From positions 1-48,418 of IMG/VR virus record IMGVR_UViG_3300035180_002605: 48,418 nt of DNA; one strand, given 5' to 3'. This document shows, piece after piece, positions 6,731-47,887 of this stretch. The DNA is from a virus. The notes under the pieces are model-generated. The model had not been told where the DNA came from and ran no database searches. It worked only from the letters and a program-made list of their open reading frames with translations. Numbering within the stretch: position 1 is the stretch's first letter; each line of letters opens with the position of its first letter. The position numbers and the translations under genes are program-made.

Positions 6731-7062
6731 AGTAGCCGTGCGTGAGCAAACGAGATCGCGATGTCGGACTTCGTCCGCAGGTCAAGCGACTCAAACGAAC
6801 AGCAGTGGAGGTACCAGCACTCGCCCGTACCCAGGTCAACCTCCATGTCAAAGACGTTGTCATGCTCGTAAGCCTCAGCGATGGCCTCATTGGTGTCTTC
6901 GAAGCCGGCAATCGCCAATGCCCATCGCGGATTGGTCAGGTTCATAACACGCCCATCAGGCGATGCCTCGGTCGGAGGAATCATGACCTCTTGCTCGTCA
7001 TATTCCATGGACGGACGCGACATGTAAGTAACAGTCGCTTTTAGCTTAGGAAGGGATGTCAT
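6727..7062 (-). CDS. Unknown acidic protein downstream of nrdA
   Basis: An ATG at 7062 overlaps the nrdA stop as ATGA, giving 111 residues; an in-frame ATG at 7080 is six codons upstream inside nrdA and is less likely. The sequence is acidic with mixed strands and helices (VATYMSRPSMEYDEQEV-like start; 'FEDTNEAIAEAYEHDNVFDM'; 'TGECWYLHCCSFESLDL'). Two adjacent cysteines occur near residue 90. No family is recognised. Coupling to nrdA suggests co-expression with nucleotide reduction genes, but this does not prove a shared function. Confidence 0.7.
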   Translation of the reverse strand: MTSLPKLKATVTYMSRPSMEYDEQEVMIPPTEASPDGRVMNLTNPRWALAIAGFEDTNEAIAEAYEHDNVFDMEVDLGTGECWYLHCCSFESLDLRTKSDIAISFAHARLL

Positions 7063-34928: not shown

Positions 34929-35834
34929 ATGCTATTAGAGATTATTGATACATCACAAAAGTTTGACAGAGCTATTAGGCTATGGAAAGTTGCTTGTGAT
35001 GACTGCACAATAGAACAACTTAGAACATTCAATCAAATTCGTAACAGCGAACAACGATGGAACGGATTCCATATTTGTAAGCCTTGTGCAACACGAAGAA
35101 CCAACAAGACCAAGACACAAGAGGATTATGCAATCGCTGGAGAGGCTGGGCGATTGGCAACCAAAAATAAACGCTTAGAAGAAATCGTGGGTGAGACTAA
35201 GGCAAAACGAATCAAAACGGAGTATACAGCTAAAAGATCTGGGAAAAATAATCCAAACTTTGGTGGCAAATTATCACGCGGATTCGCGGATAGACCTCTC
35301 AGAGGAAAATGGGAGGATTTGTTCGGAATAGAAAAAGCAGCTGACATGAAACTTAACATGTCAATTCGCAATAGCGGTTCTGGCAATCCAATGTACGGTC
35401 AACCTACACCAAAGAAGGCCGGGTGTGGTATTAGCGGTCACTACAAAAACTTCTATTTTCGCAGCTTGCTTGAGTTATCAATGATGCTCATGTTAGAAGC
35501 AAATAGCATAGTTTGGATATCAGCAGAGTCTAAAAATCATCGTTTCAAATATATGATAGACGGAAGAGAACGATCATACTTCCCTGATTTCTATCTACCG
35601 GCAACTGATGAGTACATCGAAATCAAACCGAAATCGCTTAGCAGATCTAGAGAGGTCCTAGCTAAACTTGATGCAGTACGAGCTACTGGGAAGAGAATAA
35701 AATTGCTCTCGGATGAGAATGTGAATAAAATCTCATATGCTAAGTTGATAAAGTTGATGGCTGATCAAACAATTGTCATTGACAATAGTAAGTTAAAAAG
35801 AGTTGAAAAATATGCTGCAAAACATAATTTGTGA
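34929..35834 (+). CDS. Homing endonuclease: zinc finger, NUMOD3, PD-(D/E)XK nuclease
   Basis: A 301-residue protein, distinctly AT-rich with AGA/ATA codons unlike its neighbours, a sign of recent transfer. Order of parts: a CxxC...CxxC zinc-finger-like region at about 23-60 (ACDDCTI; ICKPCATRR), two NUMOD3-type motifs (GKNNPNFGG and GSGNPMYGQ), and a C-terminal nuclease fold with FRSLLEL (Glu), YFPDFYL (Asp) and YIEIKPKS (E-x-K), the PD-(D/E)XK signature. It would cut DNA at an insertion site in related phages to spread itself. Its last 23 bases overlap the start of the kinase gene, so insertion preserved downstream translation. Strong ribosome site TAGGAGG. Confidence 0.85.
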   Translation: MLLEIIDTSQKFDRAIRLWKVACDDCTIEQLRTFNQIRNSEQRWNGFHICKPCATRRTNKTKTQEDYAIAGEAGRLATKNKRLEEIVGETKAKRIKTEYTAKRSGKNNPNFGGKLSRGFADRPLRGKWEDLFGIEKAADMKLNMSIRNSGSGNPMYGQPTPKKAGCGISGHYKNFYFRSLLELSMMLMLEANSIVWISAESKNHRFKYMIDGRERSYFPDFYLPATDEYIEIKPKSLSRSREVLAKLDAVRATGKRIKLLSDENVNKISYAKLIKLMADQTIVIDNSKLKRVEKYAAKHNL

Positions 35835-36393
35835 AGGTTTGGACAGGCTTGGTAAAAGCACGCTTGTTGACAACCTTAAGCAACGGCTCGGCCACTTCAC
35901 CAGCCTGCATTACAGCAAGCCTGAGCTGCTGTCCTACTACGAGCTACGAGTCGGGCGGGGCAAGGCGCACGAGTTCTACCAGCGCGATTCCTTCGGTGGC
36001 ATGTTCAAGCTTCTCGCTTCGGACGCTCGGGTCATCATGGACCGCGGCCACCTCGGCGAGATGGTCTATGCCCATCGCTATCGCGGCTATGACGGCAGCT
36101 ACGTGCTCGACCTCGAGCAAGGCAAGGGCGTTGACAACACCCTGCTCGTCCTGCTCGTCAATCATGACGTGGACCTCGAAGCAAGGCTCGTCGATGACGG
36201 CCTCGGCTTTGACTGGGGCAAGCGCAAGGAGGAGCAAGAGGACTTCATCACCGCCTTCCGCCGCTCCAAGATCAGCCACAAGGCGCTCATCAATGTAGGA
36301 CGACAGGGCCACTTCATCGACCAAGCGGAGATCATCGATGCTGTCTCCCAAGCCTACCTCAAAGCCGCCTGGTACACCAGCATCGATGCTTGA
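35812..36393 (+). CDS. dNMP/thymidylate-kinase-like P-loop kinase
   Basis: A 193-residue protein started at ATG 35812; a TTG three codons earlier is possible. The P-loop is GLDRLGKST (residues 9-17), as in thymidylate kinases (EGLDGxGKST). A DR-x motif follows (MDRGHLGEMVYAHRYRGYDG), typical of deoxynucleotide kinases, with a lid-like basic segment (WGKRKEEQEDF). It probably phosphorylates deoxynucleoside monophosphates. In this neighbourhood 5-hydroxymethyl-dCMP is a likely substrate, as for T4 gp1, although it is not of the gp1 sequence type. The homing endonuclease gene overlaps its 5' end. Confidence 0.8.
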   Translation: MLQNIICEGLDRLGKSTLVDNLKQRLGHFTSLHYSKPELLSYYELRVGRGKAHEFYQRDSFGGMFKLLASDARVIMDRGHLGEMVYAHRYRGYDGSYVLDLEQGKGVDNTLLVLLVNHDVDLEARLVDDGLGFDWGKRKEEQEDFITAFRRSKISHKALINVGRQGHFIDQAEIIDAVSQAYLKAAWYTSIDA

Positions 36394-37007
36394 CTTCTCC
36401 CACGAAGCGGCTTACAAGCTGCTTCTTAGGTTTAGGCACGTACCGACGGCGATCAAGGGTTTCCTCGCCCTCACCTCGGCAAATGTGCACATCACGGATG
36501 CGAGCATGTCTCAGACGCTGATTGGCAGCACCGACGGCAACGTCCTGACCGGCACCGTACTGAACTTTAGCGGCGGGCCGTACGTTGAGCTGTTTGACGG
36601 CTTATGCGCGCTAAGCTCAAGCTCAACGCCGATGCTAACGGTTCACGAGCTAAGCTCATATGATACAATCGAGGCCGCCTACATAGACTCGAGGCTGGGC
36701 TCATTCTTGGTGAGCAAGGTTGCGTGCAGGACGCATCGAGGCCTCTCATTGACAGCTCACATCAAGTACCCAACATGGTGCTGATGCACTTTGACTCCAA
36801 GACCAAGTCGCCCAGCATGGCGGCGTAGCGCTCGGCTTGTTCGCTACCTCCGACAAGGTCTATGTCAGCTGTGCGCCTGAGTTCTGGCGCTACGGTAATG
36901 TCGAAATCGTCTGCCAACGGCATGGCATCCCGTTGCACCCAACCCTGCAAGAGCTGCTCGGCGCAACGCTGCCGCTCGTCCAAGGAGCCGGATTGTCATG
37001 GAGATAG
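36386..37007 (+). CDS. Unknown protein, reading frame interrupted by two shifts
   Basis: The first part is intact from ATG 36386 (overlapping the kinase stop) to 36784: MLDFSHEAAYKLLLRFRHVP and onward. Convincing codons then continue in the next frame around 36690-36832 (GEQGCVQDASRPLIDSSHQV, then PNMVLMHFDSKTKSPSMAA) and again in the third frame from about 36832 to TAG 37005-37007 (LGLFATSDKVYVSCAPEFW, then GNVEIVCQRHGIPLHPTLQE). Both shifts are consistent with one missing base each. The final frame overlaps the start of the next gene, as genes here usually do. I infer one gene of about 200 codons. The function is not recognised. Confidence 0.5.
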
Positions 37008-37201
37008 GATTCCTCATCTTCATGGTCGCTATCCTAGGTTTTGAGATGGCGATCAGCATCAAGGCCCGCGACGGCTATGAGCATGACAAGCGCATCAATG
37101 AACAGTTGCGTGCTGAGATTCGAGCAGGCTTGACACAGCTTGCCGAGAAAAATAGTGCCAAGCCAAAGCTGCGCAAGGTCAGCCGAAAGCGGCCGAGATA
37201 G
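36998..37201 (+). CDS. Small membrane protein
   Basis: A 67-residue protein, ATG 36998 overlapping the previous stop. Residues about 3-20 (IGFLIFMVAILGFEMAIS) form one transmembrane helix. A charged helix (KARDGYEHDKRINEQLRAEI) and a very basic end (KPKLRKVSRKRPR) follow, probably in the cytoplasm. Single-span phage proteins of this type can be holin-like, superinfection-related or membrane anchors; nothing here discriminates. No lysis genes are seen next to it. Confidence 0.7.
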   Translation: MEIGFLIFMVAILGFEMAISIKARDGYEHDKRINEQLRAEIRAGLTQLAEKNSAKPKLRKVSRKRPR

Positions 37202-37229
37202 GTTTACACCAAGCCGCTTTAGCGGTTAC

Positions 37230-37260
37230 AATCCTCATAGCTTAACTAACTGTGAGGATT
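37230..37260 (+). promoter_or_regulatory. Hairpin sequestering the ribosome-binding site of the CoaB-like gene
   Basis: AATCCTCA (37230-37237) pairs perfectly with TGAGGATT (37253-37260). The latter contains GAGG, the Shine-Dalgarno of ATG 37264. In mRNA the site would be hidden in an 8-bp stem with a 15-base loop. A weaker hairpin (AGCCGCTTTAGCGGTT) precedes it. This suggests translational control, although no ligand or protein can be named. Confidence 0.5.
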
Positions 37261-37263
37261 GCG

Positions 37264-38510
37264 ATGCCAAAGATCATCGTGATTGGCGGTGGGACATTCT
37301 CCCACGTACGAAACCACCTGAGCCTCTGCGCCTCTGCTTTCGGGGAGACGGCGCGTACGCTAGCCGAAACCCTCAGGGCCGAGGTCAGGAAGAGGGGCCA
37401 ACGCTTCTACGGCGTTGACCTTTACCTGACCAAGATGGCGGACCCGACCTCGAAGCTGGTCACCAATGAGGATGTCGACAAGCTGCTTGACAAGCTCATC
37501 GCCACCCTGATGTCCGCGCCATCATCTTCAACCCAGCGCTCGTGGACTTTGACGGCCATGTCGATGAACGCCGTGTCGCCTCAGGCAAGCAGAACGGCTT
37601 CGCACGGATGCCGGGGAGCAAGTGATGACGCTTCGGCCGGCGCCTAAGCTCATCGGCAAGATCCGCAAGACGCGCAAGGACATCTTCGTCGTCGGCTTCA
37701 AGACCACGACGGACGCCAATCCAGGTGAGCAGTATGCGGCAGACCTCAGGCTGCTGAAGACCAACTCGCTCAACCTGGTCCTGGCCAACGATACGATCAC
37801 GAGGCGCAACGTCATCATCGCGCCTGAAGAGACCCAATACACACCGACCACCGACCGCACCTACGCTCTCAATACGCTGGTCGAGATCATGCTGTCTCGC
37901 ATGACCAACACCTTCACCCGCAGCACGGTCGTGCCTGGCGATGCGGTACCCTGGAACTCTGAGCTGGTGCCTGTCAACCTCCGCGAGGTCGTGGACTTCT
38001 GCAAGACCGTGCTCGGCAAGACCGCCGGCCACTTCGCCGTCAAGCTCAGCGACACCGAGGTGCTGACTAGCATCCGCAAGTCCAACTTTAACGAGCTGGC
38101 CAAGGTCGGCATGGTCAAGATCGTGAGCTCTGGCCATGACTCCGTCGTGGCACATGGCTTCAAGCCCTCAGTCGGTGGCCAGTCGCAGCGCATCGTCTTC
38201 AGCAAGCACCAAGACGTGGACTGCATCGTCCACTTCCACTGCCCCGCTAAGCGGACCTACGACATTGCCACTCGGTCCCAGTGGCAAAACGAGTGCGGCT
38301 CGCATCAATGCGGCCAGAACACCGCCGACGGGCTGCAGGTCGTTGACCTCGGCGACGGTGACCGGCTGAAGGTCGTCTACCTCGAGGACCACGGCCCCCA
38401 ACATCGTCTTCGACCGCCATACGCCTGCTTGGAAGGTCAAGCAGTTCATCACCGACAACTTCGAGCTCGCCAGCAAGACCGGTGGCTTGATTCCTGAAAG
38501 CGTGCAGTGA
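37264..38510 (+). CDS. CoaB-like phosphopantothenoylcysteine synthetase with class II aldolase-like C-terminus (frame-interrupted)
   Basis: Reading through three one-base shifts (near 37495, 37620 and 38393) gives a protein of about 415 residues. The N-terminal part resembles CoaB, the CoA-synthesis enzyme that joins 4'-phosphopantothenate and cysteine: KIIVIGGGTFSHVRNHLSLC, AIIFNPALVDFDGHV, APKLIGKIRKTRKDIFVVGF, then NSLNLVLANDTITRRNVII. The C-terminal part (about 245-400) resembles the class II aldolase/adducin fold: VVAHGFKPSVGGQSQRIVF, VDCIVHFHCP (metal-ligand-like HxH), GSHQCGQNT and DHGPNIVFDRHTP. The last shift is an extra C in the run CCCCC at 38393. Either assembly errors or recent decay may explain the shifts. 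Confidence 0.7.
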
Positions 38511-38779
38511 TGCTCAAGCTTGCCCAACTTCGCCCTGGCCTCATCCTCGAGAAGGATGACGCGCCTTACATCATCAACACCCTGACGCTGGATGACGGTG
38601 ACACCCTTTGGAACGTGTACCGCTACGACCAGGTTGACCCGGAGCCGTTCTTCACAGAGTCGGCTGACTGGTACATCGTCGTCGCCCGTGACACCCACAA
38701 GGGCTTCCTGTCCAAGGACTTGCTGCTCGTAGCGCTCAATGTCAACAGCTTCAACCTTGACCATGCCGAGATTGACTGA
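38510..38779 (+). CDS. Unknown small acidic protein
   Basis: An 89-residue protein started at ATG 38510, sharing bases with the preceding TGA (TGATG); a GTG directly before is possible. The sequence (MLKLAQLRPGLILEKDDAPY) continues with 'DDGDTLWNVYRYDQVDPEPF' and 'DWYIVVARDTHKGFLSKDLL'. It is beta-rich and acidic. No family is recognised. It overlaps the next gene and so belongs to the same operon as the CoaB-like gene. Confidence 0.65.
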   Translation: MLKLAQLRPGLILEKDDAPYIINTLTLDDGDTLWNVYRYDQVDPEPFFTESADWYIVVARDTHKGFLSKDLLLVALNVNSFNLDHAEID

Positions 38780-39101
38780 CTTCGGCAAGAGCGACGTCGG
38801 CGTCTTCCGCTACTCGCTCGTAGCGGTAGCTGACTTCAGCCGCATCGCCGAGCTCAAGGCCAGGGTGACGCTAACAACCGGCGAGGTGCTGCCGCTCTCA
38901 GGGTCCCACGCCCTGGAAGCCGCCTACATCCTGCACCCGTCGGTGGTTGAAGGCCAACACCTTCGCTTCGCTCGCCACGCATGGGCCTTGCATAACCTGC
39001 TCGGCCACCCGGTCATGCAGCTGCTCGCATTCTGCAAGCTATACAAGCAAGCGATGTGGGTCCATGAGGTCACCGTGCCTAAGTGCAAGAGCCCAGAGTG
39101 A
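38763..39101 (+). CDS. Conserved-looking small protein with HNLxGHP motif
   Basis: A 112-residue protein from ATG 38763 (MPRLTDFGKSDVGVFRYSLV). The C-terminal half contains RHAWALHNLLGHPVMQLLAF and 'MWVHEVTVPKCK', a pattern I associate with small phage proteins of unknown role (HNL-x-[AG]-HP). The His residues and surrounding hydrophobic helix could suit metal binding or membrane association. It lies between the CoaB-like and NAD genes; the overlap with the previous gene is 17 bases. Confidence 0.65.
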   Translation: MPRLTDFGKSDVGVFRYSLVAVADFSRIAELKARVTLTTGEVLPLSGSHALEAAYILHPSVVEGQHLRFARHAWALHNLLGHPVMQLLAFCKLYKQAMWVHEVTVPKCKSPE

Positions 39102-39217
39102 CGCCGACGATGGCCGATGCCGAGGTGACGGCCCAGCTGCTGCTGAAGATCACCGAGATGTCACCGAGGTGTCGCATTGCTCTTCAGTGGCTGTCGTTGA
39201 GATGTGAACCTCATTGA
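39098..39217 (+). CDS. Short coupled reading frame (39 residues)
   Basis: A GTG at 39098 overlaps the previous stop as GTGA; ATG 39110 is an alternative. The peptide (VTPTMADAEVTAQLLLKITE, then 'MSPRCRIALQWLSLRCEPH') could form an amphipathic helix. It also overlaps the next frame, which starts at GTG 39204. Only the coupling supports it. Confidence 0.35.
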   Translation: MTPTMADAEVTAQLLLKITEMSPRCRIALQWLSLRCEPH

Positions 39218-39410
39218 TCTGCCGCCCGCTTTCCGATGCTGTACCGATTTTGACAACAGTAAAGCTCAGCTCAGCGTCAATGTCATCAACATCGCTCGGC
39301 TAGAAAAGCTTGAAGCTGAGGTGCTTGTGCTCAAGCGCATGAAGAACCAAGCCGTCATACACAAAGTTCCAAAAATCAGTGTACAACCAACGAAGGTTGG
39401 GGTACAATAA
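39204..39410 (+). CDS. Short coiled-coil-like protein
   Basis: A 68-residue frame starting at GTG 39204 (MNLIDLPPAFRCCTDFDNSK). Residues about 28-50 (VINIARLEKLEAEVLVLKRM) have a heptad pattern typical of a coiled coil. The stop TAA (39408-39410) is embedded in the promoter-like CAATAAATATG. No function is recognised; the start codon is uncertain. Confidence 0.5.
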   Translation: MNLIDLPPAFRCCTDFDNSKAQLSVNVINIARLEKLEAEVLVLKRMKNQAVIHKVPKISVQPTKVGVQ

Positions 39411-39415
39411 ATATG
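39381..39415 (+). promoter_or_regulatory. Hairpin and late-promoter-like CAATAAATATG before the NAD genes
   Basis: An imperfect hairpin (GTAC..CCAAC-GAA-GTTGG..GTAC, 39381-39405) is followed at once by CAATAAATATG (39405-39415), which resembles the other TAAATA motifs and again includes the stop codon of the preceding gene. It lies about 45 bases upstream of ATG 39460 and may start transcription of the NAD block. A short frame MSDAQRARQPTNGEFQWHQ (39413-39472) overlaps the next start and may be a leader peptide or chance. Confidence 0.4.
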
Positions 39416-39459
39416 TCTGACGCACAAAGAGCGCGTCAACCCACCAACGGAGAGTTCCA

Positions 39460-40647
39460 ATGGCATCAGTAATCCCCACCAAGAAGCATGAGGTTAGCGC
39501 CGTGTTTAGGGACGTCATCGTCTACAACGGTCGCTTCAATCCCTTCCACCTCGGGCACGCCCATGTCCTGCAAGAAGCGCTCAGGCGCGGCAGGTTGGTC
39601 ATCGTGCTTGTCGGTTCAAGTGGCCTATCCCGCTCGCTGAAGAACCCCTTCACGTTCGCCGAGCGGAAGCAGATGATCGTCCAGTGGTATGAACGCAACA
39701 TGCCGCTGGATGACAGCTGGGGCACGCTCTCCGTTCGGCCGTCGCGCGACTACCCGTACAACGACATGCTGTGGCAGCGCAGCGTCCAAAGCATCGTCAA
39801 GACCGCAATCGAAAGCCGGATGTGGAAGGAGCAAGCAGCTCCTAACATCAACCTGATCGGCTCTGATCGTGACGAGAGCACCTGGTACCTGCACGCCTTC
39901 CCGCAGTGGAAGACGATCTTTGTCGAGCCCTACCGGCAGAACGGCGTGCTCAATGTGAGCGCCACCGACGTGCGTTCGTGGCTGTTCGGCGGCGAGGGGA
40001 CTCACATCCCGGATGTCGTGCCTGACACAACACTTCTCAACATGGAGCGCTTCAAGAGCACGCCCGAGTTTGCATCGCTGGTCGAGACCTACAAACACGT
40101 CTGCGCCTACAAGGAGCGCGCCAAAGCCTACCCGTATCCGCCGATCTACCAGACGGTGGACGGCGTCATCGTGCAATCCGGTCACATCCTCACGGTGGTG
40201 CGTGGCCACGAGCCTGGCAAGGGTCTTTGGGCGCTTCCTGGCGGCTTTGTGAACGCCAATGAGCGCCTCCGTAGCGCATGCATTCGCGAAGTGATCGAAG
40301 AGACCAAGATCAAGCTGACCGAAGGCAAGGACCCAGTCAAGGTCAAGAAGATCACGACTGACATCCTGCGCGGCTCGATCCGTGCGGAGCAGGTCTTCGA
40401 CAAGCCGGACCGTTCGGACCGTGGCCGCACGATCACGCACGCCTACTTCTTCCGGCTCGATGACATGAAGCCGTTGCCCCAAGTCAAGGGCATGAAGCAG
40501 GGCAACACCGATCCTGAGTGCGACGTGATCGAATGCTTCTGGCTGCCGATCAGCGAGGCGCTCGAGCGCATGGACATGTGGTTCGAGGACCACCACGCAA
40601 TTGTTGAATGGGCCATGGGCCACATCGACCGCGAGACGTTGACGTGA
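39460..40647 (+). CDS. nadM: Bifunctional NMN adenylyltransferase-Nudix hydrolase
   Basis: A 395-residue protein. The N-terminal nucleotidyltransferase has GRFNPFHLGH (residues 24-33, GxFxPxHxGH signature) and the NadM-type SLKNPFTFAERKQMI; it would make NAD+ from NMN and ATP. The C-terminal Nudix domain has GGFVNANERLRSACIREVIE followed by ET (about 261-283), close to the Nudix box GX5EX7REUXEEXGU, with Lys at the last Gly position. The fusion matches cyanobacterial slr0787-type proteins and phage KVP40 NatV. It is followed by Nampt, giving a complete nicotinamide-to-NAD+ route, the composition of NARP2. Shine-Dalgarno GGAGAG precedes ATG 39460. Confidence 0.92.
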   Translation: MASVIPTKKHEVSAVFRDVIVYNGRFNPFHLGHAHVLQEALRRGRLVIVLVGSSGLSRSLKNPFTFAERKQMIVQWYERNMPLDDSWGTLSVRPSRDYPYNDMLWQRSVQSIVKTAIESRMWKEQAAPNINLIGSDRDESTWYLHAFPQWKTIFVEPYRQNGVLNVSATDVRSWLFGGEGTHIPDVVPDTTLLNMERFKSTPEFASLVETYKHVCAYKERAKAYPYPPIYQTVDGVIVQSGHILTVVRGHEPGKGLWALPGGFVNANERLRSACIREVIEETKIKLTEGKDPVKVKKITTDILRGSIRAEQVFDKPDRSDRGRTITHAYFFRLDDMKPLPQVKGMKQGNTDPECDVIECFWLPISEALERMDMWFEDHHAIVEWAMGHIDRETLT

Positions 40648-40823
40648 TCTACTACTGTCCAGTTCATCGGCTGTAGCTCTGACGACTATGTTTCTTCGGC
40701 ATCCTCATCATCCTCTTCTTTGCCGTGGACATCCCAATGCTGCTCATTGGCAAGATTCACGAGCTGATTCAAAAGTATCGTGCCACCCAAGCGGCAGCAC
40801 CGTTCTTCCTGATTGGAGCAATC
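40648..40823 (+). other. Spacer upstream of Nampt with an open hydrophobic frame
   Basis: From the stop at 40680 the frame stays open into Nampt and encodes a hydrophobic segment (FFGILIILFFAVDIPMLLIG), but it has no start codon before ATG 40725. Either a small membrane protein has lost its start by a one-base shift, or this is chance. The real Nampt start is ATG 40824 with GGAG upstream. Nothing else is seen. Confidence 0.4.
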
Positions 40824-42275
40824 ATGACAACCCTGCAATTCAACCCCATCCTGGACACCGACAGCTACAAGCTGTGCCACGCCTTCGCCTACCCTGAGTA
40901 TGTGAGGGGCATGTTCTCCTACATCGAAGCCCGCACCGGCGGTCGCGACATCATGGTCCCGTTCGGCCTGCAAGTCTGGCTGCGCGAGTACCTGTCGGTG
41001 CAGATCACGCTCGAGATGATCGACGAGGCTGAAGCCTTCGCCGCCGCCCACGGTGAGCCTTTCAGCCGTGACGGTTGGCTCAAGGTGGTTAACAAGTACA
41101 ACGGCTACCTGCCCCTGACGATCCGCGCCGTCCCTGAGGGCACGCCGGTCCGCAGCGGCAACGCCTTGGTCACGGTCAAGTGCGTCGACCCTGACCTCTA
41201 CTGGCTGACCTCCTACATCGAGACCTCGCTGCTCCGGGCCGTCTGGTACCCGACCACCATCGCCTCCTTGGACTACGACACCAAGCTCGAGATCAAGCGC
41301 TTCTACGAGGTCGCTGGCGCCGACCTCGGCTTCCTGCCCTTCTCGCTGCACGACTTCGGCGCACGCGGCGTCACCAGCCGCGGCCAAGCCTGCATCGGCG
41401 GCGCCGCCCACTTGGTCAACTTCATGGGCTCCGACACCATCGATGGCGTTCGGACCGCGAACTTCTACTACGACCACTCGATGGCTGGCTTCTCGGTGCG
41501 CGCCACGGAGCACAGCGTTGCCTGCTCTTTCGGCCTGTCTGTCGAAGATGAGATCGCCTACATCGACCACGCCCTGACCAAGTTTGAAGGCCAAGGCAAC
41601 ATCATTTCCCTGGTCGGCGACACGAAGGACATCTACCGCTTCGCTGAACAGCTGTGCACCGTCTTCAAGGACCGCATCATCGACCTGCACACCCGCCTGG
41701 GCATGAAGCTGGTCTGCCGCCCCGACAGCGGCGACGCCCTCGAGGTGATCCCGCGTGTGATGCGCCTCTTCTGCTCGGCCTTCCCGACCACGAAGACCAG
41801 CAAGGGCTACGTCAAGATGTATCCAGGCATCGGCATCCTGCAGGGCGACGGTGTTGACCGCATGACCCTGAAGACCCTGCTGGGCAACCTGATGGCGATG
41901 AACTTCTCGCCCGACAACATCGTCTTCGGCTCTGGCGGCGGCCTGCTGCAGAAGGTCAACCGTGATACCTTCAAGTTCGCGATGAAGGCTTCGGCGATCC
42001 TTGTCAAGGACACGAATACGAACAACCCGATTGATTTTCCGAAGGACCTCTGGGTCGGCATCGTCAAGGACCCGATCACGGACCCGGGCAAGAAGTCCAA
42101 GGAAGGCGTCTTGACGCTGGCTCGATCGAAGATGACCGGTGAGTACTCGACGGTACGCATCGATCAAGGCCCGCTGAGCGACGAGTTCGAGGACGTGATG
42201 GTGACGGTCTACGAGTACGGCGTGCTGAGCAATCAAACCACACTGGACGAAGTCCGCGCTCGCTGCGCTGTATGA
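40824..42275 (+). CDS. nadV: Nicotinamide phosphoribosyltransferase
   Basis: A 483-residue protein that makes NMN from nicotinamide and PRPP. Start ATG 40824 (MTTLQFNPILDTDSYKLCHA) agrees with the family N-terminus and has GGAG upstream. Family blocks are HDFGARGVTS (176-185), IGGAAHLVNFMGSDT, the catalytic-His block ATEHS (His230, human His247), RPDSGD (299-304), GILQGDGVDRMTLKTLLG and FGSGGGLLQKVNRDTFKFA. All active-site blocks are intact. Next to NadM-Nudix it completes a two-step NAD+ salvage pathway. In other phages this pair rebuilds NAD+ after depletion by Thoeris, DSR or SIR2-type defences. A long antisense frame exists but is a shadow. Confidence 0.95.
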   Translation: MTTLQFNPILDTDSYKLCHAFAYPEYVRGMFSYIEARTGGRDIMVPFGLQVWLREYLSVQITLEMIDEAEAFAAAHGEPFSRDGWLKVVNKYNGYLPLTIRAVPEGTPVRSGNALVTVKCVDPDLYWLTSYIETSLLRAVWYPTTIASLDYDTKLEIKRFYEVAGADLGFLPFSLHDFGARGVTSRGQACIGGAAHLVNFMGSDTIDGVRTANFYYDHSMAGFSVRATEHSVACSFGLSVEDEIAYIDHALTKFEGQGNIISLVGDTKDIYRFAEQLCTVFKDRIIDLHTRLGMKLVCRPDSGDALEVIPRVMRLFCSAFPTTKTSKGYVKMYPGIGILQGDGVDRMTLKTLLGNLMAMNFSPDNIVFGSGGGLLQKVNRDTFKFAMKASAILVKDTNTNNPIDFPKDLWVGIVKDPITDPGKKSKEGVLTLARSKMTGEYSTVRIDQGPLSDEFEDVMVTVYEYGVLSNQTTLDEVRARCAV

Positions 42276-42461
42276 GCTAGGGAGCTCACATGACCCATGT
42301 GGGTCCCGTGATAGCGCATAGCCTAGCGCCGTAGCCCTATCAAGCCGAGGGCAGAACGGCGAGCCATCAAGCCCGGCGACACTGCTGAGGTCCAGAACAT
42401 CCTGCGCACGATAGTCAAGGAAATCTTCGATGAGCGGTCATAAGGATGATTCAATCAAATA
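42276..42461 (+). other. Intergenic hairpin and small coding fragment
   Basis: After nadV there is a hairpin, CACATG-ACC-CATGTG extended by GGGA/TCCC (about 42280-42307), without a U-run. Further on, an open frame without start codon reads RRSPIKPRAERRAIKPGDTA, then EVQNILRTIVKEIFDERS, to TAA 42441-42443. It looks like the end of a small helical protein whose start is lost or frame-shifted; MTHVGPVIAHSLAP from ATG 42290 is a possible front part. Confidence 0.35.
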
Positions 42462-43082
42462 ATGCAACCCAATCCCATCCTCATTGACCAAGACGGCGTG
42501 CTCGCAGACTTCGTGCTAGGGCTCTACCAGGAGCTCGAGCGTCGCCTCGCACCAGCTGACTTCGCTCACATGCCTGACATGAACACGGCAGAGACCTTCT
42601 ACGTTGAGGACTGCATCAACAGCGGTGATCCTAAGTATGACATCTGGCTGAAGAACCAGGTCATCCATGTCGTGGATACTTGGGAGGGCATGTTCCGTGA
42701 CATCCCACCGATTCCCGGCGCTGTTGAGCACGTCCAACTGTTGCAGGACCTAGCAGCCAAGCATAACATCGGCGTCCGCATCTGCACAGCGCCGCACGTC
42801 GAGCACAAGACGTGCCACTCCGACAAAGCGGCCTGGGCGGCCAAGCACTTGGGAGACACCTGGGCCAAGCAGATGATCATGTCGCACGACAAGACCGTCG
42901 TCCGCGGCTTGGTGCTGCTCGATGACAAGCCCAAGGTGACCGGCTCGCTAGAGCCCATGTGGGAGCACGTGGTCTTCGGCGCACCCTGCAACCGACACAC
43001 CGATCGAATCCGGGTGGATGGCTGGTCAGAAGCCAGCGTCATGACGATCCTCAACCGAGCTCTGGAGCGTAACCGTGAATAA
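42462..43082 (+). CDS. 5'(3')-deoxyribonucleotidase-like HAD phosphatase
   Basis: A 206-residue protein. HAD motif I is ILIDQDGVLADF with nucleophile Asp9 and acid/base Asp11. Motif II lies in VRICTAPHVEH (Thr), motif III Lys in 'SHDKTVVRGL', and motif IV is LLDDKPKV. The DxDGVLADF opening and length are typical of bacterial and viral 5'(3')-deoxyribonucleotidases, which dephosphorylate dNMPs such as dUMP and dTMP. In this phage it may trim the pool of unmodified deoxynucleotides or act in NAD/nucleotide turnover. The stop overlaps the next start at 43075. Confidence 0.85.
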   Translation: MQPNPILIDQDGVLADFVLGLYQELERRLAPADFAHMPDMNTAETFYVEDCINSGDPKYDIWLKNQVIHVVDTWEGMFRDIPPIPGAVEHVQLLQDLAAKHNIGVRICTAPHVEHKTCHSDKAAWAAKHLGDTWAKQMIMSHDKTVVRGLVLLDDKPKVTGSLEPMWEHVVFGAPCNRHTDRIRVDGWSEASVMTILNRALERNRE

Positions 43083-43238
43083 GGGCCTTGCCTCCCTCGG
43101 GCTATGCGTTGTCGCATGCTACCTGCTCTACCTTGACCACTGCCGCGGCCGATCCACGAGGTCGTGTTATTTCCCAAGAACCACAAGAAGCGCTGCACCC
43201 TCTACTACGAGACGCCAGCTGAAAGGGACTTGCCATGA
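43075..43238 (+). CDS. Small N-terminally anchored membrane protein (frame-interrupted)
   Basis: From GTG 43075 the frame gives VNKGLASLGLCVVACYLLYL, a single membrane helix or signal anchor. Past about 43135 the coding sense moves to the next frame: PLPRPIHEVVLFPKNHKKRC, then TLYYETPAERDLP to TGA 43236-43238, which overlaps the next ATG (ATGA). A single missing base would join them into a protein of about 54 residues. Function unknown; it could be a small inner-membrane or periplasm-facing protein. Confidence 0.55.
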
Positions 43239-44011
43239 AGATCGTTGTCACCGGCGGCGCCGGGTCAGATAAATCCACGCTCATCAAGAGCCTCCGAGAG
43301 GCGCTAGGTTCGACCTTTGCTTACGCCAACGTAGACGACGCTGTTTGGGCGAACCCGCAGATCCTCTTACAGCCGAGCGAGCTTGAGACCTTCCGAGGCA
43401 TGGTCAACGGCAAGACCATGGAGCAGGTGCGTGAGCAGGTGTTCACCGACGAGCGCTTCAAGTTCAAGCTCGAGGAGGTCTTCAAGGGCGCCGTTCGGTA
43501 CCAGATCGAAGAGGCCATGGAGCACCTGGACTTGGTGCTCGAGTCCCGCTCTTGTATGAGCGCTTCGACCGCGAGCTCTATGATCGGTTTGACGCGGTCG
43601 TCGTGGTCGAAGCAGGCTATGATAACAACAACGAGCGGAAGCAGCGACTCAAGGCTCGTGGCTGGCAGCCACGATCAAGGGTGTGTTCAAGTCACAGATG
43701 ACTGACAGCGCTCGGCATGACTTCATCAGCGTCATCAAGAACGGCCTTAAGGTTTTCAGAGTCAACACCGGCAAGAGCGATGTATCTGCACCGCATGATC
43801 GGCTCCCAGCCAACATTCGCTTCATCGCCAACTGGCTAAAGGGTGAGAGCTACAAGCGGCGCTTACCTACAGCCAAAGTGGGCGTTGTCGCCGGCTCGTT
43901 TGACCCGGTCACCTCAAGGGTTGGGAGCTCATGCTTAAGGCTTACACCAGCGATCCAGTCTGGCGCTACATCCTTGAAACCTACGGGAAGGATCCTGATG
44001 ACTTCCAATGA
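43235..44011 (+). CDS. CoaE-like P-loop kinase (frame-interrupted)
   Basis: Frame 1 (43235-43550) begins MKIVVTGGAGSDKSTLIKSL and has VREQVFTDERFKFKLEEVF. Frame 2 (about 43548-43675) reads PLLYERFDRELYDRFDAVVV, then ERKQRLKARGW. Frame 3 (from about 43670) gives FKSQMTDSARHDFISVIKN. This follows the dephospho-CoA kinase order: P-loop, R-x-x-VF, PLL-[YF]-E, D-x-VVVV, ER-x-x-R, QM. Deoxynucleotide kinases of this fold are an alternative. The Walker A has Asp where Gly is expected (GSDKST for GSGKST). Further on VVAGSFDPV occurs, and after another shift HLKGWELMLKAYTSD to TGA 44009-44011; that end is uncertain. Confidence 0.6.
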
Positions 44012-44224
44012 CCCGAGGCTCGCCACCGTCTGGTATCGTCGGTCGGTGAAGGGCAAATATGAGCGAAACCACATCGAAGACGGCCGCGTGGTGAAAGCCA
44101 CGCCGACCATCAAGCATCCCGACCAAAGTGGCAATGGGAGCACGCGTTCCTGACGAGCGATGTGCCTCCGAAGCTGGTGTCACGGTTTACATTAGTCTCG
44201 GCGCTGAATATAATCCAACTGTGA
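43998..44224 (+). CDS. Unknown small basic protein (frame-interrupted)
   Basis: Starting at ATG 43998 (overlapping the previous stop): MTSNDPRLATVWYRRSVKGK, then ERNHIEDGRVVKATPTIKHP. Near 44113 the sequence GACCAAAG breaks the frame. With one more C it continues as PKWQWEHAFLTSDVPPKLVS to TGA 44222-44224, which overlaps the GTG start of the HNH gene (GTGA). The preserved overlap argues for a one-base loss rather than a true early stop. Function unknown. Confidence 0.5.
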
Positions 44225-44514
44225 CTGACCTCTGCCCGCTCTGCCACCGTACGCTCGGCCTCGAGAACATCGACCGGCATCATCTGGTGCCGAAGTCTCG
44301 TAAGGGCAAGGTGCAGGAGCCCATCCACAAGATCTGCCACCGCAAGATCCACGCCACCTACACCGAAAAGGAGCTGGAGAAGCGGTTTTACACATGGGAT
44401 GAGCTGCGCGCCCAAGAGCCGATTCAGGTCTTCATCGAGTGGGTCAAGGACAAGGACCCGGCGTTCTACCTGAGCACTCGCGAGACCGTTGAGCGCAAGG
44501 GAAAGCGGCGATGA
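44221..44514 (+). CDS. Small HNH-domain protein
   Basis: A 97-residue protein if started at GTG 44221 (MTDLCPLCHRTLGLENIDRH). It has CPLC (paired cysteines), RHHLVPKSRKGK, HKICHRKIHATY (the HNH His residues) and 'WVKDKDPAFY', matching a family of short bacterial HNH proteins with the tail pattern 'EALRAHPxI...FVRWVR'. An ATG at 44128 would extend it into the previous gene and is unlikely. Family members are usually annotated as HNH endonucleases. It lies inside an operon of accessory genes and lacks NUMOD motifs, so it is not an obvious homing enzyme. Confidence 0.8.
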   Translation: MTDLCPLCHRTLGLENIDRHHLVPKSRKGKVQEPIHKICHRKIHATYTEKELEKRFYTWDELRAQEPIQVFIEWVKDKDPAFYLSTRETVERKGKRR

Positions 44515-44814
44515 GCGGCGAGCTGTCTGATATTATCTACGACTACATTCGCTCGGCTCGCGGCGGCTGTCGTTGTCAGGACCCGGGCGCCTACCCACCT
44601 TGCAACAATTGCACCCGGGAAGAGACCATCGATGAAGTTGAAGAGGCTATCGAACAATGTGTTGGTCATGATGGCGCTGACAACCTCTCCAATGACGAAG
44701 TAGGGCGCGCTGCGCTGGCTGATCGAAGCTGAGATGCCCAAGACCGACTTCCTCAAGCTGCAAACTTGGCTCATCGACGAATGTGACTACGAAGGCAAGA
44801 TAGCCCCACCATGA
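44511..44814 (+). CDS. Unknown Cys-rich acidic protein (frame-interrupted)
   Basis: Starts at ATG 44511 (ATGA overlap): MSGELSDIIYDYIRSARGGC, then CQDPGAYPPCNNCTREETID. The four to five cysteines (GGCRCQ...CNNC) suggest a metal site. At GGG 44703-44705 one base seems extra. Removing it continues as GALRWLIEAEMPKTDFLKLQ and 'DECDYEGKIAPP' to TGA 44812-44814, overlapping the next ATG. Without correction the frame ends at 44732. Function unknown. Confidence 0.55.
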
Positions 44815-45650
44815 CCAAGAGCAAGCGACCCGTCATCCGCGTGGGTGACCGAATCCGCATCGTCAACTCGCGCTTCATTAAGCGGGTCGGCTACCCGGTC
44901 ATCTGGACAGACATCGCTCAGGACGTAGCCAAAGACAAGCGTACGCTTGCAGCTTACAGGCTGCTCGATGAAACGCTCACCGTCAGCAAGGTCACGACAA
45001 AGCTGCACCTCGACGCCGATGATGACATGTACGCGAATGACCCGCACTATCGTCGGTTTGTCCGCGCCGTGGCGATGAAGCGTGTCGAGCAGATGCGCTT
45101 CGGCGGTAACGAGCGCACGCTGCACTACTACATGACCGTTGACCGGACAGGCATGGGCTTGGGCAACCTGAATGAAGATCAAAGGCTGGACATGACGGGC
45201 GAGATCATGACCGTCATCGGCAAGAAGGTCGCCAAGACGGGCATCAGGTTTGCACCGTGGAGCGGCACCTCTGGCTATGACGGCGAATATAACTACGAGC
45301 CTGGAGGTCTTGAAAATGAGGTCACCCACGTCCTGCTCGACACAAGCCATGGCTTGATCAGCCGTGACGATGTCGAGCTCCTGAAGGATAAGGCCGAGCG
45401 AGTAGCGGACGCGATCAATGCCGCTTTCGGCAGGCTCTACGAGCCGATCACCATGCGCAGGCTCCAGGAGCTCCTACACGTGTATGACCCCGAACTGGTG
45501 CGCGAGGTTGCCCTGAAGCAGATCGCCGCAGGGAAGCTCAAGGTTGACGAGGGGTCGCAGCTGCTGCCCAGGCTGAATCGAATTCCATCGCTAGCTGAGC
45601 TGCGCGCTCGCTTCGCTGGCATCCCTGAGCTCTCAGGGAAAGTTCGTTAG
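44811..45650 (+). CDS. Unknown conserved-looking phage protein
   Basis: A 279-residue intact protein (MTKSKRPVIRVGDRIRIVNS) whose N-terminus 'VGDRIRIVNSRFIKRVGYPV' resembles a small SH3-like barrel seen at the start of some phage-encoded proteins of unknown function. The middle has a substantial alpha/beta domain ('RTLHYYMTVDRTGMGLGNLN') and the C-terminus is helical with 'LARNRIPSLAELRARFAG'-like sequence. It ends four bases before the convergent LRR gene. No catalytic motif is visible. Confidence 0.7.
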   Translation: MTKSKRPVIRVGDRIRIVNSRFIKRVGYPVIWTDIAQDVAKDKRTLAAYRLLDETLTVSKVTTKLHLDADDDMYANDPHYRRFVRAVAMKRVEQMRFGGNERTLHYYMTVDRTGMGLGNLNEDQRLDMTGEIMTVIGKKVAKTGIRFAPWSGTSGYDGEYNYEPGGLENEVTHVLLDTSHGLISRDDVELLKDKAERVADAINAAFGRLYEPITMRRLQELLHVYDPELVREVALKQIAAGKLKVDEGSQLLPRLNRIPSLAELRARFAGIPELSGKVR

Positions 45651-45654
45651 CCGG

Positions 45655-46473
45655 TTACTGATCAGCCATGTGATTCATGTTGGCGTCGATCAGCGCGTGC
45701 TGAAGCTTCAAGAACGCCTGCCGCTTGTTCTCTATCTGTAGGTGCTCGTTAAAGAGCTTGAGGATGTCGTCGCGGTAGCCGATGCCTTGAAAGACAATTT
45801 GCCTCAAGCCTGGCACGAGCACCAGCCTAGGCGAGAGCTTGTGAGCCTCATTCGCGCCGACAAAGAGTAGTCCCGAACCCTGCATTACAGTTGTACGCGG
45901 GAATCGAATTACTTCGAGCTTCTCACACCCGTCAACTACTAGCATATGCAGCTCTTTGGGCATGCTTTCGAGGCTAATCAAGCCATTGCAATTGTTGATG
46001 TGCAACTCGGCAGGCTTGTGGTCTTCGAGACCTTTCAGCGTTGTCAGCATGTGCATGTTGATCAGCTGCAGCTCATCATTGACAAGCGGAGCGCCTGTTA
46101 ATGATGTCATGCCACAGTCGACAAGCTTTAAATTTTCAACTTCGAGTGGCCCATGAGCCATGTTAGCTAAGCCTGCACAACCGTATAGCTTAATGTTTCT
46201 TAGCTGCGGAGGTAGATTGGCTAATGACTTGAGCTTGCTGCCTTTGGTTACGGTAATAGTTAGGCCTGGCCAGGCATTGAACTTGACCTTGGCCTCCTCC
46301 CAGTGCTGAGGTAGCGTGATCGCTCGATCTCCGATGTCCTTTATCGGGCTGATCGAGCCATCAGCTTCAATGACAAAGTCATCACCTTCGTCAATGTTCG
46401 TAAAAGCGGCTGACATTACCGCACGCACGGCGACTTTGTTTGTGACAGTTTCGCATAGTGTTGAAAGCAGCAT
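45655..46473 (-). CDS. Leucine-rich-repeat protein
   Basis: A 272-residue protein. From residue about 75 to 235 it has irregular LRR units of 20-23 residues: LPPQLRNIKLYGCAGLANM, PLEVENLKLVDCGMTSLTG, 'DELQLINMHMLTTLKGLEDH', 'AELHINNCNGLISLESMPK', 'LHMLVVDGCEKLEVIRFP'. Units of this kind are known from bacterial and T3SS-like LRR proteins and bind protein partners. The C-terminus ends with FLKLQHALIDANMNHM, the short motif shared with three other genes. It is divergent from the 46498 gene across 24 bases. Target unknown; a decoy or anti-host role is only a guess. Confidence 0.78.
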   Translation of the reverse strand: MLLSTLCETVTNKVAVRAVMSAAFTNIDEGDDFVIEADGSISPIKDIGDRAITLPQHWEEAKVKFNAWPGLTITVTKGSKLKSLANLPPQLRNIKLYGCAGLANMAHGPLEVENLKLVDCGMTSLTGAPLVNDELQLINMHMLTTLKGLEDHKPAELHINNCNGLISLESMPKELHMLVVDGCEKLEVIRFPRTTVMQGSGLLFVGANEAHKLSPRLVLVPGLRQIVFQGIGYRDDILKLFNEHLQIENKRQAFLKLQHALIDANMNHMADQ

Positions 46474-46497
46474 TGGCTATTTATTAAATAAGCCAGC
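46474..46497. promoter_or_regulatory. 24-bp divergent spacer with two opposed late-promoter-like cores
   Basis: The whole spacer reads TGGCTATTTATTAAATAAGCCAGC, nearly palindromic (TGGCT..AGCCA ends). On the minus strand AATAAATAGCCA leads into ATG 46473; on the plus strand ATTAAATAAGCCAGC leads into ATG 46498. There is no room for Shine-Dalgarno sequences or 5' leaders if the cores act as -10 elements. Confidence 0.55.
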
Positions 46498-47136
46498 ATG
46501 AAACTCGTCACCCTTCTCGAATCAAACAAACTAAGGGCCGAGGCTCTGAAGCTTCAGCAAGCGTTCATCGACGCATCCGACGGCTTGCTCGATATCAAGC
46601 TTGCGCCGTATGACGGAGGCATTCTTATCATTGCACGAAATCCTAAAAACAGGACGGCTCATGTTGAAGCGTGGGTGCATAGCTATGATAGCGACCCTGA
46701 CACGGTGCTCATTAACAGCAGAGGCAATAGCTGGCGTACAACTGATGAGCGCTATGTCTTAAGACTAACACGTCAAATTTTACGTTATACGCTCGGGTGG
46801 CGACTTGAAGAGTGCAAAAGCTTCGGCAGCAGTATGCTCAAGCTGCTAAAGACAGGTGACTGGGCTCTTGGCTTTAATGACCGCTGGTACAGCTTTGGAG
46901 CCAGAGTCAAGCACGGTGACCTCAAAGTAGGCAGCGAGTACTTTGTCGGTATTCAAAATCAGATTCAGATTCACATATCGTACACTTTTACGCCGGTGCG
47001 CTATGAAGCTGCCGCTGTTAAAGAGGGCGCGCGTTGGAAGACGCCGGCTAAGTGGATCAGGTTGTATGAAGGCGGGCCGTGGAAATGGCCTGAGTCAGCG
47101 ACACCCATATTCTTTGAGATGGTGAAATATGGCTAA
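46498..47136 (+). CDS. Unknown protein with N-terminal LKLQQ motif
   Basis: A 212-residue intact protein. It opens with MKLVTLLESNKLRAEALKLQ, then QAFIDASDGLLDIKLA, the motif shared with the genes at 5210, 6730 and the LRR C-terminus. The remainder is mixed alpha/beta with aromatic strands ('WALGFNDRWYSFGARVKHGD', 'IQIHISYTFTPVRYEAAAVK'). No known domain is recognised. It overlaps the next gene by eight bases, so they form an operon driven from the divergent spacer. Confidence 0.7.
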   Translation: MKLVTLLESNKLRAEALKLQQAFIDASDGLLDIKLAPYDGGILIIARNPKNRTAHVEAWVHSYDSDPDTVLINSRGNSWRTTDERYVLRLTRQILRYTLGWRLEECKSFGSSMLKLLKTGDWALGFNDRWYSFGARVKHGDLKVGSEYFVGIQNQIQIHISYTFTPVRYEAAAVKEGARWKTPAKWIRLYEGGPWKWPESATPIFFEMVKYG

Positions 47137-47665
47137 GTACCTTCAGCTTCAAAAGCTCTCCACCGACCTGGCAAGCACGTCGACCCTGCTGATCAACCAA
47201 GAGGACATCCTGATTGTTGATACGGTAGGGATGCAGAACAAGGTCACTCAGCTGGTCGAAGTCGTCTCACGTGTCGTGCTGGTAGGCTACCCGTCCTACA
47301 CCTTCTACACACGGACACCGATGGCTGCGTTCGAGGCCCAGCTCAGGGCTATTGACTTCACCGGAGGGATCGGCTCAGGCTCGTCATGCTCGATGCCAGG
47401 CGTGCTTGACATCGTCACCGTTTCAGCGACCTACCCATCAGTCAAGCTGCTGCGAGTCAAGAACAATACCGTCGTGGTCACCGACCCGCAGGTTGTCAAC
47501 TTGAACTACCTCTACTTCGCTGAAGAGGTCCCGTTTGTCGACGAGGAGCTCAATGTCCAAGTGTCGGCCTTCATGCTAACGCTGAAGGGACAGCCGAATG
47601 AGCGCTTCTTGGCCAAGGTCACGCTCGCTGAGCTGCAAGCCGCGCTAGATCCTACCGTCCTATAA
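47129..47665 (+). CDS. Unknown beta-rich protein
   Basis: A 178-residue protein (MAKYLQLQKLSTDLASTSTL) with alternating strands: 'ILIVDTVGMQNKVTQLVEVV', 'VVLVGYPSYTFYTRTPMAAF' and a final helix 'AKVTLAELQAALDPTVL'. The composition would fit a small virion or morphogenesis protein. It follows the 46498 gene with an eight-base overlap. Its stop TAA lies inside the next promoter-like motif. No family is recognised. Confidence 0.65.
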   Translation: MAKYLQLQKLSTDLASTSTLLINQEDILIVDTVGMQNKVTQLVEVVSRVVLVGYPSYTFYTRTPMAAFEAQLRAIDFTGGIGSGSSCSMPGVLDIVTVSATYPSVKLLRVKNNTVVVTDPQVVNLNYLYFAEEVPFVDEELNVQVSAFMLTLKGQPNERFLAKVTLAELQAALDPTVL

Positions 47666-47668
47666 ATG
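47661..47668 (+). promoter_or_regulatory. Late-promoter-like motif TATAAATG
   Basis: CCTATAAATGTAAAG overlaps the stop codon of the preceding gene and is the closest match in the window to the T4 late consensus TATAAATA. It lies 35 bases before ATG 47703, a normal leader length. Confidence 0.5.
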
Positions 47669-47702
47669 TAAAGTCGAGCGAACCAAGGATATAATCTCGG
47701 CC

Positions 47703-47862
47703 ATGGCTGACCCGAACGCTCCAACCCTCCCCGCGGCTTTGAAGAAGATCATGATGCCCATGATCAAGAAGGTCGTGCCGGCGTTCAGCCCATGTCGGCG
47801 CATGTGTCTTTGAGACATATGAGGATGTTTTGACAAAGTTCCAGCTCGCCGCTGGTTTCTAA
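47703..47862 (+). CDS. Small unknown protein, frame-interrupted
   Basis: ATG 47703 opens MADPNAPTLPAALKKIMMPM, then IKKVVPAFSP, but stops at TGA 47814-47816. From about 47790 the +1-shifted frame reads ACVFETYEDVLTKFQLAAGF to TAA 47860-47862. One extra base in 47770-47800 would explain this; the joined protein would have about 52 residues, basic helix first. Function unknown. Confidence 0.4.
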
Positions 47863-47887
47863 GCTCTCCCACCAGGAATCCGTCTCC

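Follow-up and report, generated by a model that had tools for sequence, protein, structure and literature searches.

Phages such as Vibrio phage KVP40 salvage nicotinamide adenine dinucleotide (NAD+) with the enzymes Nampt and NadM. The last two steps of coenzyme A (CoA) synthesis, adenylylation of 4'-phosphopantetheine to dephospho-CoA by CoaD and phosphorylation to CoA by CoaE, are combined in the bifunctional COASY-type synthase, in the order PPAT-DPCK. We have analysed a viral record of 48,418 bases, IMGVR_UViG_3300035180_002605 (hereafter the window; coordinates refer to the whole record), in which intact Nampt and NadM-Nudix genes lie side by side, as in known phage salvage, and, unlike there, are flanked by CoA-type genes: a broken gene that resembles CoaE and a broken gene that joins a CoaB-like to a class II aldolase-like domain (hereafter the fusion). 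We consider it fairly probable that in a large tailed phage this block serves cofactor maintenance, and that part of it has decayed in the genome at hand.

Phage genes for either cofactor are in print. In the viral fraction of snow, coaE and coaD are among the abundant genes, NAMPT and nadM are abundant too, nadE is reported with them from the same samples, and one 321.7 kb snow-virus contig carries six auxiliary genes (passages of PMC11097641). These coaD and coaE genes encode the same two enzymes that we find in relatives of the window phage; the passages do not describe a fusion, a gene order or a CoaB-like gene. A phage phosphopantetheine adenylyltransferase (coaD) is also reported (passages of PMC8093824). 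The earlier note on this DNA had held that CoaB-like and CoaE-like genes beside NAD+ salvage genes are not a described phage system. This does not hold for phage coaD and coaE as such, but it does for a CoaE-CoaD polypeptide and for the CoaB-like/aldolase fusion, neither of which is described in phages among the matches listed by our search of open-licence literature. CoA terms are absent from the searched text of a survey of viral NAD and ADP-ribose systems, except for 'pantothen' in the reference list (PMC9503650), and from that of a 2026 review of jumbo phages (PMC13282480, term search). That the fusion is undescribed is based on the literature search and on the PHROG label 'unknown function'. 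NARP1, with Adps and Namat, is a related NAD+ route (passages of PMC12774641).

On the plus strand, the genes of the window run TMK-like, CoaB-like, two small open reading frames (ORFs), NadM-Nudix, Nampt, NT5C-type and CoaE-like (Table 1). NadM-Nudix, Nampt and the NT5C-type gene are open frames without a break. The NadM-Nudix product scores 54 bits with PF01467 and 51 bits with PF00293, both above the gathering scores, and matches phrog_395 (E 7e-70). The Nampt product passes the curated equivalog NF006629 (476 bits; cut-off 405) as well as PF04095 and PF18127, and matches phrog_448 (E 1e-127). NadM-Nudix thus passes Pfam cut-offs only, and Nampt a curated equivalog. The listed Nampt frame begins at GTG 40725 and ends at 42275. 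Because the alignments begin near residue 38, the true start is probably, as judged by eye, the ATG near 40824. By family assignment, the two enzymes would make nicotinamide mononucleotide (NMN) from nicotinamide and phosphoribosyl pyrophosphate (PRPP), and then NAD+. A match of the PADLOC model PDC-S07 to the Nudix part of NadM (E 2e-8) was taken as a shared-domain match.

The CoaE-like gene is broken. Its first part starts at 43235 in frame 2, ends at 43543 or at 43663 according to which relative is aligned, and is 33% identical to the CoaE of locus L010 (E 3e-9) and 27% identical to that of L013 (E 9e-9). It is followed in frame 3 (43674-44012) by two pieces in the expected order, 43674-43913 (E 0.001) and 43854-44012 (E 0.004). 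The score with TIGR00152 is 20 bits against a cut-off of 65.55, and the P-loop reads GGAGSDKST where L010 and L011 have GGIGSGK, so that D replaces a G of GxxGxGK. The tail resembles just about the first third of CoaD and includes GSFDPVT, a motif typical of CoaD; beyond 44012, tblastn finds no CoaD match in the window. Searching the phage records by tblastn with the broken CoaE piece returned none, and a scan with the first CoaE piece returned two contigs identical to the window together with the relatives L010 (345 kb) and L011 (55 kb). Since these relatives encode an intact CoaE-CoaD protein (363-364 residues; 61% identical to each other), the ancestral window gene was probably CoaE-CoaD, and the window gene is probably its broken remnant.

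In the intact relatives, both domains pass curated cut-offs. CoaD scores 139, 141 and 148 bits in L010, L011 and L013 (cut-off 103.3), and CoaE scores 88.6, 98 and 76 bits (cut-off 65.55). In a model of the L011 protein (pLDDT 88.3, pTM 0.69), the CoaD half aligns to E. coli CoaD 6b7a (Z 24.6, rmsd 1.2, 158 residues aligned) and the CoaE half to 4i1u (Z 22.7, rmsd 2.3, 190 aligned). The profile of the polypeptide matches solved CoaD, CoaE and the CoA synthase 2f6r; when scanned with two rows, it yielded no additional phage. The positions GSFDPIT.GH, R91, R94 and SSS, which we take to be the functional ones of CoaD, are invariant in six phage rows. Both domains in one chain recall COASY-type synthase, whose order CoaD-CoaE is also found in viral L102 and L097 and in bacterial L072; viral L010, L011, L093, L094 and L099 are unlike it in having the reverse order, CoaE-CoaD. 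A match of PADLOC VakA to the P-loop end of the polypeptide (E 3e-4) was likewise attributed to a shared domain.

The fusion gene of the window changes frame three times. According to tblastn with five intact relatives, it occupies frame 1 at about 37264-37503, frame 2 at about 37586-38398 and frame 3 at 38394-38498; just one of them, L036, shows an extra piece in frame 3 (37506-37592). The pieces are 41-63% identical to the relatives and jointly cover residues 4-418 of the 419-residue L036 protein. Programmed frameshifting can be rejected: the fusion gene alone has three changes, another gene has one or more, and the relatives are intact in a single frame.

Table 1. Genes of the block and its flank in the window.
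Feature	Coordinates	Strand	Evidence
Thymidylate-kinase-like gene (TMK), flank of the block	35803-36393	+	PF02223, 28.8 bits (cut-off 27)
CoaB-like/class II aldolase-like fusion gene, three frame changes	37264-38498	+	tblastn with five intact relatives; PF00596
Small ORF	38507-38779	+	
Small HNLxGHP protein, recurrent downstream partner of the fusion	38739-39101	+	profile matches; phrog_36447 (function unknown)
NadM-Nudix, bifunctional NMN adenylyltransferase/Nudix hydrolase, intact, 395 aa	39460-40647	+	PF01467, PF00293, phrog_395
Nampt, intact	40824-42275	+	NF006629; phrog_448
NT5C-type 5'-nucleotidase, intact, 206 aa	42462-43082	+	PF06941, E 8e-20, above cut-off
Broken CoaE domain, N-terminal part (homology stops at 43543-43663)	43235-43705	+	tblastn to L010, L013
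Probable CoaE C-terminal part and CoaD start (GSFDPVT), different frame	43674-44012	+	weak tblastn pieces

The gene content given in the earlier note is thus real and partly misread. Its genes lie where it placed them, and Pfam confirms NadM-Nudix and Nampt, the latter together with the curated equivalog; the NT5C-type gene was left out of its list. Resemblance to CoaE is present at the named place, in a gene that is broken across two frames and has an altered P-loop. Resemblance to CoaB is real at the level of the fold; the aldolase-type C-terminal half was overlooked, and the gene is not one open frame. The reader had seen the breaks, as the wording 'frame-corrected' shows.

Have these genes decayed, or are the breaks errors? 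Window positions 35235-48418, a stretch of 13,184 bases, recur without a difference in two contigs (62.6 and 133.9 kb), every break included; the contigs may stem from related samples, and their independence is uncertain. The P-loop substitution and the absence of the rest of CoaD point to decay. Because both CoA-type genes are broken, they are unlikely to provide the window phage with CoA, and because the CoaE-CoaD remnant and the CoaB-like/aldolase-like gene are broken, only its NAD+ arm looks functional. The alternative is that the real phage has whole copies of the fusion and of CoaE-CoaD, the breaks having arisen in sequencing or assembly. This is a serious possibility, short of an even chance in our estimate: the fusion is an intact single frame in 24 of 27 distinct viral loci, and the broken pieces still cover nearly the full length of a relative at 41-63% identity, which would not be expected of an old pseudogene. 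Set against this, the two contigs repeat all breaks at 100% identity, NadM, Nampt and the NT5C-type gene stand unbroken between the broken genes, and frame errors explain neither the altered P-loop nor the lack of a CoaD match past 44012.

A cofactor-maintenance cluster is supported by relatives in which the CoA genes are intact. CoaE-CoaD has NadM and Nampt within 8 kb in L010 and L011; L088 has separate CoaE and CoaD genes with NadM and Nampt; and L013 and L090 combine CoaE, CoaD and NadM with a PRPP synthetase, that of L013 matching a solved enzyme at E 3e-105. The window and the L010 contig share the order TMK, NadM, Nampt, CoaE and a gene at 47888. In Caulobacter phage C1, annotated NadM, Nampt and phosphopantetheine adenylyltransferase genes lie within 8 kb. 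Related phages do place predicted CoaE and CoaD, in many cases joined in a single polypeptide, in the neighbourhood of NAD genes; gene matches and folded models have shown this for them and not for the window phage. The co-occurrence that had been proposed from adjacency in the window is thus borne out in L010, L011, L088, L013 and L090, and the objection that it might occur in no related phage fails, since in L102 a CoaD-CoaE gene adjoins the CoaB-like fusion.

With phage CoaD as query, 31 viral loci were found, 27 of them distinct once duplicates at 100% identity were merged. CoaE is fused to CoaD or within 2 kb of it in 13 of the 27 (fused in 7), and NadM lies within 10 kb in 7, Nampt in 5 and PRPP synthetase in 3; CoaE, CoaD and NadM come together within 10 kb at five loci, three of which have Nampt too. 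Ten of the 27 CoaD-bearing records hold a full-length NadM (at least 160 bits with one NadM query). NadM is within 10 kb of CoaD in five of these ten, against a random-placement mean of 1.4 (P 0.003), and in three of the seven records longer than 150 kb (P 0.006). The records in this test are partly related (L010 and L011 being 61% identical in CoaE-CoaD), and L108 and L109, in which a profile finds a divergent NadM near CoaD, were excluded from it.

These data bear on a second alternative, in which only the NAD+ genes matter and large phages carry CoaE- and CoaD-type genes as ordinary passengers, unconnected with NAD+ salvage. Nampt is indeed common in phages, with tblastn matches in 1,908 of 50,697 records; at 20 of the 27 CoaD loci NadM is not found within 10 kb; and LR756500 carries CoaE and CoaD, with no match in searches for NadM and Nampt. 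But close linkage in half of the records that have both genes is rare under random placement, and the linkage comes in at least three arrangements, and we regard the passenger reading as unlikely.

Several points weigh against a cofactor-maintenance cluster. The CoA arm is broken in the window, where the breaks could also be assembly errors, and the CoaD part of the remnant is drawn from matches of E 0.001-0.004. The best equivalog for NadM-Nudix, of PRK05379 type, scores 319 bits, below the cut-off of 397. In 17 of the 27 CoaD-bearing records (L108 and L109 among them), one NadM query found no full-length NadM, and in the other five of the ten records with both genes, NadM and CoaD are 23-125 kb apart. 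Many of the viral records are fragments.

If the block does maintain cofactors, Nampt and NadM would convert nicotinamide to NMN and then to NAD+, and CoaD and CoaE of related phages would make CoA from the 4'-phosphopantetheine of the host. The two pairs would share a logic: each would rebuild an adenylate cofactor from a host precursor that contains no adenylate, nicotinamide in one case and 4'-phosphopantetheine in the other. Such late precursors would require few steps, which would suit a virus that must restore a pool quickly. During infection, phages of this kind may replenish or restore both cofactors, for instance once NAD(P) or CoA has been cleaved; host attack, high demand and turnover are candidate triggers. 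An attack by host defence on CoA pools is conjecture; no host system that depletes CoA was found among the matches listed by one literature search. Gene clusters of giant phages with intact-looking CoA genes suggest that some phages maintain both cofactors. If phages do top up CoA besides NAD+, CoA would be a candidate for attack by bacterial immunity and a resource by which large phages are limited, and the intact CoaE-CoaD polypeptides of L010 or L011 are small and testable.

The intact fusion protein is about 430 residues long, with 429 in L004 and L025 and 442 in LR756511.1, an uncultured phage of 595 kb. It was modelled with AlphaFold2 on L025 with a 24-row alignment (pLDDT 90.7). Residues 1-213 of the model align to CoaB (2gk4, Z 21.9, rmsd 2.8, 200 aligned; 1u7z, Z 19.9), and the chain from residue 228 aligns to the L-fuculose-phosphate aldolase (FucA) 1dzz (Z 14.0, rmsd 3.2, 153 aligned). 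PF00596 matches C-terminal halves at 23.7 bits (the window gene) and 30.2 bits, above its cut-off of 22.2. Against solved structures, the 24-row profile finds 2gk4 and 5int, and phmmer with one intact fusion found nothing useful; against a viral structure library, the model had no match at E<=0.001.

The fusion resembles the DFP domain of CoaB in its fold and in a conserved AND loop, and differs in being joined to an aldolase-fold domain, in falling below the curated CoaB cut-offs and in the lack of a catalytic residue. The Asn of the NxSxGK-type loop, which we take to be E. coli CoaB N210 and thus the essential residue that binds the acyl-cytidylate, occurs in all 7 CoaB rows used for comparison, but in none of 14 rows of fusions or CoaB-like phage proteins and in none of the 24 rows of the fusion alignment (23 Ala, 1 Met). 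In the column that presumably corresponds to the catalytic K289 of E. coli CoaB, none of the 24 rows has Lys, but an invariant Lys162 lies two residues off, and both candidate-phylum CoaB rows also have no Lys there. Because the catalytic Asn is absent, the fusion is probably not a CoaB. The name CoaB for the first gene is therefore not supported: the model of relative L025 has the CoaB fold, but no aligned member of the family has the catalytic Asn.

The second half resembles class II aldolases of the FucA type in its fold and in an invariant HxH followed by a later His: H326, H328 and H374 are identical in all 24 rows and, by analogy with the family, are putative metal ligands. It differs from them in an invariant CGSHxC motif (C347, H350 and C352 in 24 of 24 rows), which to our knowledge is not a feature of FucA. 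In addition, the position of the catalytic Glu, which we take to be E73 of FucA, appears by hand count to fall on the invariant Gly307. The absent Asn and the Cys motif suggest that the chemistry is altered in both halves. The fusion is a separate unnamed family, a putative enzyme that is loosely linked to CoA genes; it is confidently folded and highly conserved, occurs in giant phages and small-genome bacteria, and awaits a reaction. A CoaB-like domain alone, annotated as hypothetical and also lacking the catalytic Asn, is encoded by Caulobacter and Pseudomonas (Otagovirus) phages at L001:11517-12317 (CcrSC gp055c), L006:5653-6282 and L007:4650-5270.

A viral scan for the fusion found 32 loci on contigs of up to 561 kb, 27 of them distinct (four groups of duplicates at 100% protein identity). 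The gene is a single open frame in the 24 distinct loci mentioned above (in L030 the match extends 48 bases beyond the stop); the other three are the window lineage, an early break (L032) and a contig end (L044). Membership in the NAD/CoA cluster is mostly not observed, the window and L102 being the exceptions. Whole records were searched for 22 of 29 distinct viral loci, and four had a CoaE/CoaD-type match (one marginal, E 6e-4) and three a Nampt match; searches for NadM, Nampt and CoaE-CoaD in two fusion carriers, LR756511 and a 390 kb contig, gave no match. In L102, only 40 bases separate the CoaD-CoaE fusion from the intact CoaB-like fusion gene downstream of it.

A scan of bacterial genomes, one per species, gave 18 loci: eight in Alphaproteobacteria, one each in Armatimonadetes and Polyangiaceae, and eight of candidate-phylum type (seven of these genomes are so named; that of L072, of about 1.1 Mb, is labelled just 'bacterium'). 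By eye, the contexts are mostly chromosomal-looking, and some short contigs could be phage. A clear CoaB, CoaC or CoaD beyond the fusion is found in three of the eight candidate-phylum-type genomes by whole-genome CoaBC and CoaD family searches, always within 7 kb of the fusion. In L074, overlapping CoaB and CoaC genes follow the fusion, and the CoaD of that genome is 6.6 kb away; in L066, CoaB lies directly upstream; in L072, a CoaD-CoaE fusion (CoaD 100.1 bits; cut-off 103.3) lies about 2 kb away. The CoaB and CoaC genes of L074 and L066 are below the NCBIfam equivalog cut-offs and above the Pfam ones. Not counted were weak CoaD matches (22-32 bits; cut-off 103) on further contigs of G011, G022 and G017, the last with two. 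Seven of the eight fusion-bearing alphaproteobacterial genomes have a full CoaBC elsewhere, and in five small candidate-phylum genomes, of unstated completeness, the searches found no CoaBC match and no CoaD above the cut-off. The fusion thus lies close to CoA genes where candidate-phylum genomes have any, without replacing or requiring CoaBC.

One may speculate, with no great expectation of being right, that the fusion is a new enzyme of CoA metabolism common to huge phages, candidate-phylum bacteria and Alphaproteobacteria. Its metal centre would be rebuilt around HxH, CGSHxC and HGPN, and it would supply CoaD-CoaE with 4'-phosphopantetheine or a derivative; together with Nampt-NadM, giant phages could then rebuild NAD+ and CoA against host cofactor depletion. 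That it is instead a diverged CoaBC analogue, whose CoaB-like half ligates cysteine to phosphopantothenate and whose aldolase-fold half replaces CoaC in a short CoA route with CoaD-CoaE, would fit its CoaB fold and its position beside CoaD-CoaE (L102, and nearby in L072) and beside CoaB or CoaB-CoaC (L066, L074), but is quite improbable given the missing Asn (24 of 24 and 14 of 14 rows), the full CoaBC elsewhere in seven of eight alphaproteobacterial genomes, the CoaB and CoaC next to the fusion in L074, and the five candidate-phylum genomes, of uncertain completeness, that have the fusion without a CoaBC match or an above-cut-off CoaD.

The TMK-like gene on the flank of the block is 45% identical to L081:734-1321 (E 2e-49) and syntenic with the L010 phage. 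A search of the phage records with the block DNA found no near-identical match; a more distant search returned no more than 169 bases, shared with four records of the Caulobacter phages CcrSC and CcrBL9. Long minus-strand ORFs at 40686-42236 and 39625-40623, antisense to Nampt and NadM, are in our reading shadow ORFs of GC-rich coding DNA and no genes. A small HD hydrolase is encoded between CoaE and CoaD at L088:9020-9502 and, by eye, also at L019:13215-13793. The L088 copy resembles a solved (p)ppApp hydrolase (E 5e-19) and has a weak match to human MESH1-type HDDC3 (E 5e-4); MESH1 is reported to dephosphorylate CoA (abstract of PMC13221220).

The small HNLxGHP protein accompanies the fusion at 6 of 29 distinct viral loci (about 5 kb downstream in one) and at 9 of 18 genome loci, its profile having been built from five of those 15 sequences. 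A TrmB-type regulator gene is near the fusion at all eight candidate-phylum-type loci; the L074 copy is above the PF01978 cut-off, and the remaining seven have matches at E <=3e-22, that of L060 falling below the cut-off. Six of the eight alphaproteobacterial fusions (by eye; Pfam on L063) carry an N-terminal Xre-type helix-turn-helix (HTH), namely L063-L065 and L068-L070 (at about 5500-7240 in the longer loci), and may be compared with cofactor enzymes that double as regulators, such as NadR and BirA. In L059, a 1.36 Mb Armatimonadetes contig, the fusion lies, by eye, amid phage-like genes; the contig may hold a huge phage, integrated or mis-binned, or be a chromosome that has genes of phage origin.

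ADP-ribosylglycohydrolase is the commonest Pfam neighbour of the fusion among the best 25 of 69 and the best 25 of 47 families. It lies within 4.5 kb in 6 of 27 viral loci (L026, L030, L032, L039, L049 and L056), a count that takes no account of its background frequency in such phages and points to no particular function. A link of the fusion to NAD or ADP-ribose might run through this gene together with the neighbours Macro (two members) and Nuc_deoxyri_tr2 (two). In two huge phages, a nucleoside 2-deoxyribosyltransferase-like gene lies upstream of the fusion, directly in one (L003:14153-14602) and one gene off in the other (L005:7128-7673); the L003 copy matches PF15891.

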